NCBI GenBank assembly: GCA_000306725.1 | Contig: CP003083.1 | Location: 868,001 to 932,000, forward strand | Reading direction: 5' to 3' | Source of the DNA: Methanolobus psychrophilus R15 | Lineage (GTDB): Archaea > Halobacteriota > Methanosarcinia > Methanosarcinales > Methanosarcinaceae | DNA length: 64,000 nucleotides | Part shown: positions 42,846-46,637 of the stretch, in pieces | Layout of the letters: each line of letters begins with the position of its first letter | Position numbering within the stretch: position 1 is the first letter of the stretch | The notes under the pieces: model-generated | The model's database searches: none | Told to the model about the DNA's origin: nothing | What the model saw: only the letters and a program-made list of their open reading frames with translations | Translations under genes and position numbers: made by a program

Positions 42846-42904
42846 AATAATAAGTAGTTCAGCTGAATAAGAACAGGCACATGGAGCATACAAGGAGTAA
42901 ACTC

Positions 42905-43558
42905 ATGGAGAAGAACACACGGCTTATACTCGCGCTGGACGTGCTGGATAGAGATGAAGCTCTAAGGATATCCGGGGATGTGGCAGGATACGTGGACGCC
43001 ATCAAGGTCGGCTACCCCCTTATACTTGCGACCGGACTCGGGATAATAACAGAGTTGTCAAAATATGCACCCATCATCGCAGATTTCAAAGTTGCGGACA
43101 TTCCCAACACCAACCGCCTTATTTGCGAGCAGGTCTTCAGGGCCGGCGCAGATGCCGTGATCATCCAGGGCTTCACGGGGCATGACAGCCTCAGGACCTG
43201 CGTGGAACTGGCAAAGAGCAGCAACAAGGATATTTTCGTTGTCACCGAGATGAGCCATCCGGGTGCACTTGACTTCATGCAGGAAGCAGGCGAAGCTATC
43301 GCAAAAATGGCTGCTGATGAAAGAGCCTCAGGCGTGGTTGCTCCCGCAACACGCCCCGAGAGAGTAAGGGAAATAAGGAAGATAATAGGTAACGAACTGA
43401 CAATAATCTCCCCTGGAGTTGGTGCGCAGGGAGGAAGCGCTTCTGATGCCATCAAGGCCGGCGCCGACTGGGTAATTGTGGGCAGGAGCATCTACCAGGC
43501 AGAAGAACCGGCCAGAGCTGCAGCAGGCATCGTTGCCGATATAAAGACCGGGATCTGA
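42905..43558 (+). CDS. pyrF: orotidine 5'-phosphate decarboxylase
   Basis: 217-residue TIM barrel enzyme of pyrimidine synthesis. The catalytic Asp/Lys network is in [26 protein letters not shown] and [12 protein letters not shown], and the phosphate site is [10 protein letters not shown] and VIVGRSIYQ. The ATG at 42905 has AGGAG 7 bases upstream; the longer frame from 42881 runs through that site. It is probably co-transcribed with dys. A C/D box RNA starts 52 bases after the stop. Confidence 0.96.
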
Positions 43559-43610
43559 AAAGAGGACTTTCCTGCAATGGCGGCAAAACAAGGTTAAAAG
43601 TAAAGAAAAA

Positions 43611-43670
43611 TGTGCCTGTGATGAGAAAATCGTTCTGATCGATGATGAACCCTATGAGTACTGAGGCACA
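43611..43670 (+). ncRNA. C/D box guide sRNA
   Basis: All elements of an archaeal C/D sRNA are present in order. Terminal stem TGTGCC (43611-43616) / GGCACA (43665-43670). C box GTGATGA (43618-43624). Guide 1 GAAAATCGTT (43625-43634). D' box CTGA (43635-43638). C' box ATGATGA (43642-43648). Guide 2 ACCCTATGAGTA (43649-43660). D box CTGA (43661-43664). The spacing is standard. Flanking A4/T4 extends the inverted repeat to 11 bp. It would guide 2'-O-methylation with fibrillarin, Nop5 and L7Ae. Confidence 0.9.
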
Positions 43671-43722
43671 TTTTCGTACTTACGCTTATACTACTTTCTG
43701 ACCACTTATGTATTTCTGATAT

Positions 43723-45537
43723 TCACTCCGAGAGTTCCATATTCATTTTAAGTATATGGGAGAACATCTCGTGTTTCCTTGCATCTGACATTGCGTCTTC
43801 AAGAGTCCTCTGCATTTCTTTCAGGGAATCCTCAAGGCTTTTAATGTAGACGGACTGTTGCTCAAGCCTTGTGTTCACTTTCCGGATGTCCAGATGCTGG
43901 CGATGGAGAGTTACATGTGTTCCGATCTCCTTCTCGGTGGTCCCCAGGAGATCTTCAAGTTCTTTGCGGCGGGACTCAAGTTCATTGAAACCCGATTCAA
44001 GCTCACTTTCCAGTTTAGAGGTGTCTTCACGTTTCAGCCTGATACTCTCAAGTTCCGATTCCAGTGAAGATTTTTCGGACTCGATCTCACTTCTCCATGA
44101 AATTACTTTGGCTTCCTCAGCCTCAAGTTCCCTCTTACCCATATCTATTTCGGATTGTTTTTGCCTGATAACATCCTCTTCACCGGATATGGAAAGCTTT
44201 TGCTCTTCAAGTGCTGCACGTCTCTCCTCAAAGGACCTGAACTCTTCCTCGTACAAAGAAACAGAGGCCTGAAGCTTATTATTGTTCTCTGTATAGATAC
44301 GGAGGTTTTCTTCATACTCAAGGAGGTTCTGTTGGTAAACCCCGATGTCCTTCTCAAAGGCACAGACCTTTTCCTGGAACTCCGCAGACCTTGAATTGAT
44401 CCTGGCGATCTCCATATCCACAAGCTTGCGAGATTCATATACCGCAAGCTTCCTTTTTCCCAACGCATACTCCTTTTTCACCTGCTGAGCCAGGAATTCT
44501 GCAAGTTCATGTTGCTTCTGCCGGAAAAGAGAGCAATTGTCATCATACTTTTGGGTAAGCTGTGCAAGCATCTGCTCATTCTCTTCATGGGTCCGAGCCC
44601 TCATTTCGTGGGCCGCCATAGCAGCCTCAAGTTCTGCAGTCTGCGGTATCAGCCTGGAGAATTCGCTCTGGACCTGCTCTTTTATTTCCATGATACTGGA
44701 GCTTTTGGCATTGAGCAATGATTCTTCATTCTCCAGTTCCTCCCGAAGTGTACCAAGATCAGCGCGCTTGCGGTTAAGTTCCTTCAATTCTGAGTAGTAT
44801 CTGGATCTGACGAGGTCTATGGCCGTGCCACAGTTCAATCCTTCAATGCCTATTGGCAGATCATTTCCGGATGCAAGCTGCTCCTCAAGAGAATGCAGCT
44901 TTTCCTCTAACTCTTTCTGCTTGGCATGATACTCCTGCATCCCTTCTTCATAGCGGGACATCAGGCCGGAAAGCTCTGTCTTTTTACTTTCAAGCAAAAC
45001 AGACTGTTGCTCATAATCCTTTTGTGATGCTTCGAACTCTTCCACCCTTTGTTCAAATTCAGCTTTATCCTTCTCGAAAGCAGAACGCTTCTCTTCTAGT
45101 TCGTTAACCTGTGCAGCCGGGATAGACTCTTCAGCTTTTAGCACTGCTGATTTAAGTATGGTGCATTTGCGGCTGAGCAATTCTTCCTGTCTGGACACAT
45201 CCTCTTTTAATACATCAAGATGCTTCTGTTTTTCCTCGTATTCTTCCATCTGGGAATCATATCTTGCCTTCACTTCAATAAGTACAGCTTCCTTTTCCCG
45301 GTATTCTTTTATTTGTGCTTCGTATCGCTCCTGTAACTGCTCAAGATCGGACTCAAGAGTTTTCAATACAGTCTTCTGATTGTAGATACCAGGACTTTCC
45401 GGATTATGAGAATCAGGACTCTTATCACGGCCATCCTCATTAATAACAGGCTTACGATATATATTAGGAGTGAAATCCTGATTTGTAAGACTTTTCGCAG
45501 CCTGTTTGGAATTTTTAGACCAGTTCAATGAACTCAT
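43723..45537 (-). CDS. long coiled-coil protein paired with an actin-like ATPase
   Basis: About 604 residues. After a disordered N-terminus of some 55 residues rich in Asn, Ser and Pro, almost the whole chain is heptad coiled coil rich in Glu, Lys, Leu and Gln (LESDLEQLQERYEAQIKEYR; LEEKRSAFEKDKAEFEQRVE), with breaks around LASGNDLPIGIEGLNCGTA and SRLIPQTAEL. It has no membrane segment. The ATG at 45537 is 20 bases after the stop of the actin-like gene; a GTG at 45546 is possible. The pairing suggests a filament-binding or scaffold protein, like the partners of bacterial actins. No family was recognised. Confidence 0.8.
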   Translation of the reverse strand: MSSLNWSKNSKQAAKSLTNQDFTPNIYRKPVINEDGRDKSPDSHNPESPGIYNQKTVLKTLESDLEQLQERYEAQIKEYREKEAVLIEVKARYDSQMEEYEEKQKHLDVLKEDVSRQEELLSRKCTILKSAVLKAEESIPAAQVNELEEKRSAFEKDKAEFEQRVEEFEASQKDYEQQSVLLESKKTELSGLMSRYEEGMQEYHAKQKELEEKLHSLEEQLASGNDLPIGIEGLNCGTAIDLVRSRYYSELKELNRKRADLGTLREELENEESLLNAKSSSIMEIKEQVQSEFSRLIPQTAELEAAMAAHEMRARTHEENEQMLAQLTQKYDDNCSLFRQKQHELAEFLAQQVKKEYALGKRKLAVYESRKLVDMEIARINSRSAEFQEKVCAFEKDIGVYQQNLLEYEENLRIYTENNNKLQASVSLYEEEFRSFEERRAALEEQKLSISGEEDVIRQKQSEIDMGKRELEAEEAKVISWRSEIESEKSSLESELESIRLKREDTSKLESELESGFNELESRRKELEDLLGTTEKEIGTHVTLHRQHLDIRKVNTRLEQQSVYIKSLEDSLKEMQRTLEDAMSDARKHEMFSHILKMNMELSE

Positions 45538-45557
45538 AGATACCACATCAGATCGTT

Positions 45558-46637
45558 TTAATTATCATAATTATTCAGCTTCTCCCAGAATTCATCCGGC
45601 ATTTTTTCTGCAAGCCTGCATGCTCCGTAAGCTCCGGCAAACTCTGGATCATCTATGAGAAAAACCCTGCCCCCGCCAAATTCTTTTAACTCGCTCTCGA
45701 TGAAGCTGCGCATGTTCCTTACCTTACTGCCACCTCCACAGAGACAGATGTTATTCCTTAATGTAGCACGGAACTGTGGCTCTGCACCGGAAACCATTTT
45801 TATGATGCCTGAAACGATATCCGGTATTATAGACTCACAAGCAATCCTTAATTCCTCAGTGATAATCACTTCCTCTGAGAAATCTTCCAGAGGCAATTCC
45901 ACTTTACACTCTTCATCCATATCACCCACAAAGCCATATGCTTCTTTCCATCTTCTTGCGATTTCCCTTGTCACTTTTGAACCTTCATATTTTTCTGCGA
46001 GCAGATCAACAAGTTCATTATCAATACTCTCACCGGCAACAGAGATACTGAGACAATCCTCATCTTCCGGAATGTTGCTTTTGATAAAGCACATATCTGT
46101 CTTACTTGCACCCACGTCAATGATGACAGAGCTATCAAGCCTCTGGTTACCATAAGCGACGCAGAAGAGCCCGTTAGCTACCATCACCCCTCTGAAGAGA
46201 TGTCGTGCCGCCCCCAGAACCGCTCGTTTATAGAAAGCGTCAGCCCCTGAGGGCACACCTATAATAGCATACATCTGCCCGGTATCAGCAGAAATACCAG
46301 CAGCTTGAATGCAATGCTCCAGCAATTCTGTCAGGTACTCCGGTCCTTCATTTCTATTTTCAATCAGGTCCCTTAAGGGCCACTTCTCTTTAAGGTCCAT
46401 TCTCTCAAGTGCGGCCTTCCCAAAAAATACCTCATCCTTGCCATCGATATCAGTGTCGTGGCCATCTCCGTGCGCAATGAGGCTATATTCTGAGAACATA
46501 TTTCCATCATTGGTACATATCGCTATCTTCGAAGTACCCAGGTCGATTCCCAGATAGATGATATCCCCGTTGGTTTCAGACCCAGCGAAGTTGTTAACAG
46601 TCTCATTCTCTTCTTGGAAACTTTCAGGAGTAGCCAC
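45558..46637 (-). CDS. actin/MreB/MamK-like ATPase
   Basis: 359 residues. The five-motif actin ATPase core is visible: phosphate 1 YLGIDLGTSKIAI (after ~25 disordered residues), connect 1 FRGVMVANGLFCVAYG, phosphate 2 VIIDVGASKTDMCFI, adenosine ICLCGGGSKVRNM, and connect 2 EFAGAYGACRLAE. The AVLGAARHLF segment resembles MreB/MamK rather than DnaK. Start is GTG with GAGG 7 bases upstream; a long TATATATATAT lies at 46690-46702. It forms an operon with the coiled-coil gene and follows ppk-ppx on the same strand. It probably makes filaments; the cargo is unknown. Confidence 0.82.
   Translation of the reverse strand: MATPESFQEENETVNNFAGSETNGDIIYLGIDLGTSKIAICTNDGNMFSEYSLIAHGDGHDTDIDGKDEVFFGKAALERMDLKEKWPLRDLIENRNEGPEYLTELLEHCIQAAGISADTGQMYAIIGVPSGADAFYKRAVLGAARHLFRGVMVANGLFCVAYGNQRLDSSVIIDVGASKTDMCFIKSNIPEDEDCLSISVAGESIDNELVDLLAEKYEGSKVTREIARRWKEAYGFVGDMDEECKVELPLEDFSEEVIITEELRIACESIIPDIVSGIIKMVSGAEPQFRATLRNNICLCGGGSKVRNMRSFIESELKEFGGGRVFLIDDPEFAGAYGACRLAEKMPDEFWEKLNNYDN

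Follow-up and report, generated by a model that had tools for sequence, protein, structure and literature searches.

A C/D box RNA downstream of pyrF in Methanolobus psychrophilus R15 is very probably a guide for 2'-O-methylation of wobble C34 of elongator tRNA-Met

Directly after pyrF, the genome of Methanolobus psychrophilus R15 carries a C/D box sRNA with a conserved D guide that is complementary to unspliced elongator tRNA-Met(CAU). On the strength of this pairing, its register and its conservation, the sRNA is very probably the genome's guide for the 2'-O-methyl mark on wobble C34 of that tRNA. It lies in a window of 64,000 nucleotides, the whole stretch of DNA analysed here, within a genome of 3,072,769 bases on a single contig. 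Guiding of Cm34 on tRNA-Met is already known in archaea, and the Methanolobus RNA is an unannotated example of it, real but ordinary.

A four-box sRNA follows pyrF

Scanning both strands of the 64-kb window for the four boxes returned a single site, the sRNA (Table 1). Across 300 dinucleotide shuffles, box matches arose at 0.007 per window and none had a stem of 6 bp or more; the arrangement found after pyrF is far beyond chance. The fold of the sRNA is also more stable than those of its shuffles (z = -2.9), and its box order, guides of around 8-12 nt and terminal stem closing the kink-turn are those of archaeal C/D box sRNAs.

A preliminary description of the locus had called it a C/D box guide RNA, and this identity is supported by the four boxes, the stem, the conservation of the RNA and the complement of guide 2. 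The C, D', C' and D boxes are at the positions given there, in the right order and with the right spacing, and the two guides have the lengths that it reported. The terminal stem is present as described, although it is 10 bp long (43607-43616 with 43665-43674) rather than 6 bp; relatives usually retain 6-8 of the ten pairs.

Table 1. Features of the sRNA locus (window coordinates) and of the proposed target gene (genome coordinates).
Feature	Position	Strand	Remark
pyrF (orotidine 5'-phosphate decarboxylase)	42881..43558	+	Pfam PF00215, E = 8e-51; directly upstream of the sRNA
C/D box sRNA	43607..43674	+	Maximal extent, with 10-bp terminal stem; genome 911607-911674
Terminal stem, 5' arm	43607..43616	+	AAAATGTGCC
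C box	43618..43624	+	GTGATGA
D' guide (guide 1)	43625..43634	+	GAAAATCGTT; 10 nt; not conserved; probably orphan
D' box	43635..43638	+	CTGA
C' box	43642..43648	+	ATGATGA
D guide (guide 2)	43649..43660	+	12 nt
D guide core	43650..43659	+	CCCTATGAGT; complementary to ACTCATAGGG of pre-tRNA-Met(CAU)
D box	43661..43664	+	CTGA
Terminal stem, 3' arm	43665..43674	+	GGCACATTTT; T run at end
Elongator tRNA-Met gene	genome 1467325-1467433	-	35-base intron after A37

The D guide pairs with unspliced elongator tRNA-Met at C34

We compared both guides with 23S and 16S rRNA, the stretch 3' of 23S with part of 5S, and 43 distinct tRNAs. The D guide core forms 10 of 10 Watson-Crick pairs with its complement in pre-tRNA-Met(CAU), which runs from A31 to A37 and on through the first three intron bases (GGG). 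The target site crosses the exon-intron junction, and 7 pairs remain with the spliced tRNA. G43656, the fifth guide base counted from the D box, faces C34, which is the exact N+5 register. The preliminary description had proposed looking for a complement of at least 9 bp in a stable RNA; guide 2 has a perfect one of 10 bp, at C34 of elongator pre-tRNA-Met, so that the target left unassigned there can now be named as C34 of elongator tRNA-Met. Its interest in guide 1 did not hold up, as guide 1 is unconserved and apparently without a target, and guide 2 is the one that matters.

Because 18 of 1,000 shuffled guides also reach 10 pairs with any stable RNA, the complementarity within this single genome is moderate evidence. 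A genome search with the full 12-mer TACTCATAGGGT recovered only the sRNA itself and one-mismatch matches at the rate of the reversed control; the true target agrees with the 12-mer at 10 positions and so escaped this search.

Guide and target are conserved among relatives

Using the 151-base region as a blastn query, we found the RNA in 53 of 60 relatives, covering 19 of 22 genera, and CCCTATGAG stands two bases before the D box in every homologue that could be read. The other side of the pairing is invariant as well, with ACTCATAGGG present in the pre-tRNA-Met of every genome from which the gene was recovered. At least 119 stretches match a strict pattern made up of the C' box, the D guide and the D box, and the matches listed include Methanosarcina, Methanothrix, Methanoperedens, Methanomassiliicoccales and Thermoplasmata records; as the D guide is part of that pattern, its presence in these loci is a matter of selection. 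Selection also accounts in part for the 100% identity seen for the D core in the alignment, whose rows were chosen with the core, and the blastn homologues are the fairer basis. One related family has two copies of the tRNA-Met guide around 1.3 kb apart (L024 of genome G044; G056:C23:2878-4283).

Methylation should precede splicing

In the mechanism that we propose, the C/D and C'/D' motifs of the sRNA would be the assembly sites for L7Ae, Nop5 and fibrillarin. The genes for all three partners are present in the genome, Nop5/fibrillarin at 1.892 Mb and L7Ae at 2.745 Mb. The D guide CCCTATGAGT would pair with ACTCATAGGG in unspliced pre-tRNA-Met, and fibrillarin would then add the methyl group to the ribose at C34, which lies opposite guide position five as counted from the D box.

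A bulge-helix-bulge motif accommodates the tRNA-Met intron in 54 of 56 genomes, and C34 lies in the central helix, CUCA/UGAG, of this splicing motif. Pairing of the guide would open that helix. Since the guide must do so in order to bind, a pre-tRNA should be either bound by the guide or open to splicing but not both at once, and this exclusion, along with pairing that extends three bases into the intron, implies that methylation of C34 should come ahead of tRNA-Met splicing. The same argument, that methylation precedes splicing since the pairing includes the intron, has been published for tRNA-Met and tRNA-Trp (Haloferax, Pyrococcus; PMC2584109). Transcription, particle assembly, methylation and the order of these events are steps that we infer from the sequences.

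The D' guide, the link to pyrF and alternative readings

Among the tRNAs and rRNAs tested, nothing convincing pairs with guide 1: its best partner is a tRNA-Cys, with 8 pairs and 2 G-U, and 679 of 1,000 shuffled guides do as well. D' guides of the same genus share 61% identity on average and those of the order 43%, and even among members of the genus their length varies. Guide 1 is probably an orphan, and the D' half is probably retained for particle assembly and not for a second target. A similar division, with one guide for a tRNA and the other without a target, is described for tRNA-targeting C/D RNAs of Pyrobaculum (Lui et al. 2018, summarised in PMC7994747). As a side observation, tRNA-Cys(GCA) genes occur in three distinct versions in the genome (G000), of which one is fairly unlike the remaining pair.

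A constant D' guide, with GGGTCA beside the D' box and often reading AAGAGGGTCA, was seen at 22 loci among the matches listed in the wider scan. These Thermoplasmata-type loci include L101, L110, L112, L117, L132 and L140. M. psychrophilus itself has the complement of this guide, TGACCCTCTT, in its 23S rRNA at position 1966. Because its D' guide is constant and has a 23S complement, the Thermoplasmata-type RNA looks like a true double guide, and the 23S-matching D' half seems to have been lost in Methanosarcinales.

pyrF is the immediate upstream neighbour, in the same orientation, in 30 of the 30 loci first examined, and precedes the RNA on the same strand in 79 of 79 scored loci with both a pyrF match and an intact guide, a set in which some genomes are counted twice. 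The gap between the pyrF stop and the C box measures 59 nt at this locus, against 11-156 nt in most others. In 14 Methanoperedens-type loci (L035, L091, L098, L106, L119, L124, L130, L138, L147, L153, L160, L165, L304 and L305) it is -4: there the C box ATGATGA supplies the pyrF stop codon with its first TGA, and the 5' stem arm is coding sequence. Archaea are known to have both C boxes that contain a stop codon and C/D genes that lack their own promoter (Tripp et al. 2017, summarised in PMC7994747). The Methanolobus sRNA probably arises in one of two ways, by processing of the pyrF mRNA or from a promoter close to the 3' end of that gene. With its stable linkage to pyrF, and the stop within the C box in one family, this RNA offers a clear case of archaeal C/D RNAs on gene 3' ends. 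No pyrF was found near the guide locus in one family of the order, in Methanothrix or in the Thermoplasmata-type loci, and the D guide is intact there. On the minus strand at 43723-46637 of the window, a coiled-coil protein of 607 aa that has no Pfam match and diverges quickly among relatives is encoded next to an MreB/Salactin-like actin homologue (PF06723, E = 1e-17).

Against this background we weighed three other readings of the locus. That short motifs have fallen into this order by chance and that no RNA is made has negligible probability: the boxes are short and the match to the Rfam model sR41 lies under the gathering score, but no shuffle gave the arrangement with a stem of at least 6 bp, and the RNA recurs across relatives with its guide and target invariant. 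We also consider it unlikely that the RNA is a double guide in which GAAAATCGTT directs methylation of a second RNA besides C34 of tRNA-Met. Such a role would fit the D' and C' boxes that are intact in nearly all relatives, the similar D' guides of the closest relatives (GAAAATCGTT, GAAAACCGTT and TAAAACCGTT) and the perfect 23S complement of the constant guide in Thermoplasmata-type loci; a best target no better than those of shuffled guides, together with the divergence of the D' guide in sequence and length, argues against it.

The position after pyrF raises another reading, namely that the RNA serves pyrF as a structured 3' end, acting in the stability, termination or regulation of its mRNA, and that guide function is secondary. 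The same-strand position in every scored locus and the overlap with the stop codon in one family would be expected of such an element, but we judge it very improbable, given that the link is absent in the lineages named above while their D guide is still intact, that conservation falls on the guide and boxes and not on the spacer to pyrF, and that archaeal C/D RNAs commonly ride on the 3' ends of genes (PMC7994747). Within the reading that we prefer, a tRNA-Met guide RNA, production of the wobble guide might in most Methanosarcinales be functionally coupled to pyrimidine synthesis, because the RNA would be cut from, or co-regulated with, the pyrF mRNA; we regard this coupling as improbable.

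Relation to known guides and to Rfam annotation

Several known RNAs resemble the Methanolobus sRNA. The haloarchaeal sR-tMet (RF02163), reported in Haloferax as the guide for Cm34 of tRNA-Met (PMC4033218), has the same target and the same D guide, CCCUAUGAGU, but its model is longer and has a helix between D' and C' that the Methanolobus sRNA does not have. sR41 (RF01126) shares the D guide CCCUAUGAG and its register but differs in the D' guide. The Pyrococcus guide sR49, predicted to direct Cm34 on intron-containing tRNA-Met and accompanied by 18 archaeal candidates (PMC2584109), has the same predicted role. The tRNA-Trp intron guide of Haloferax and Pyrococcus likewise serves Cm34 on a pre-tRNA by pairing into the intron (PMC2584109), but sits inside the tRNA intron, whereas the Methanolobus sRNA is a separate gene. 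Human SNORD97 and SCARNA97 are C/D RNAs that also guide Cm34 of elongator tRNA-Met (PMC6601510); they are eukaryotic, and the likeness is one of function. For M. psychrophilus R15 itself, PMC5378194 reports three C/D box sRNAs from dRNA-seq with Northern support.

The best Rfam matches of the sRNA are sR41 and sR-tMet. Searched against a 161-base stretch, sR41 matched over its full length (1-53 of 53; E = 4.7e-11) with 49.9 bits, below its gathering cut-off of 54 bits, which is a curation threshold and not a biological trait; for sR-tMet the locus scores 26.2 bits, below a cut-off of 50 bits. At gathering score, Rfam reports only one tRNA in the window and not the sRNA, which has gone without annotation because the cut-offs of both models are set high. 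Of 150 genomes searched in the class, 144 match sR41 significantly but only 1 passes the gathering cut-off; three control genomes, those of M. acetivorans, M. jannaschii and H. volcanii, also give significant matches. An RNA conserved across a class thereby goes unannotated, and a single broader model for tRNA-Met Cm34 guides would close the gap. The names are in conflict, in that Rfam's sR41 carries the tRNA-Met guide CCCUAUGAG, whereas in PMC2584109 the Pyrococcus tRNA-Met guide goes by the name sR49, and sR41 is an orphan for which a target in 23S is considered possible.
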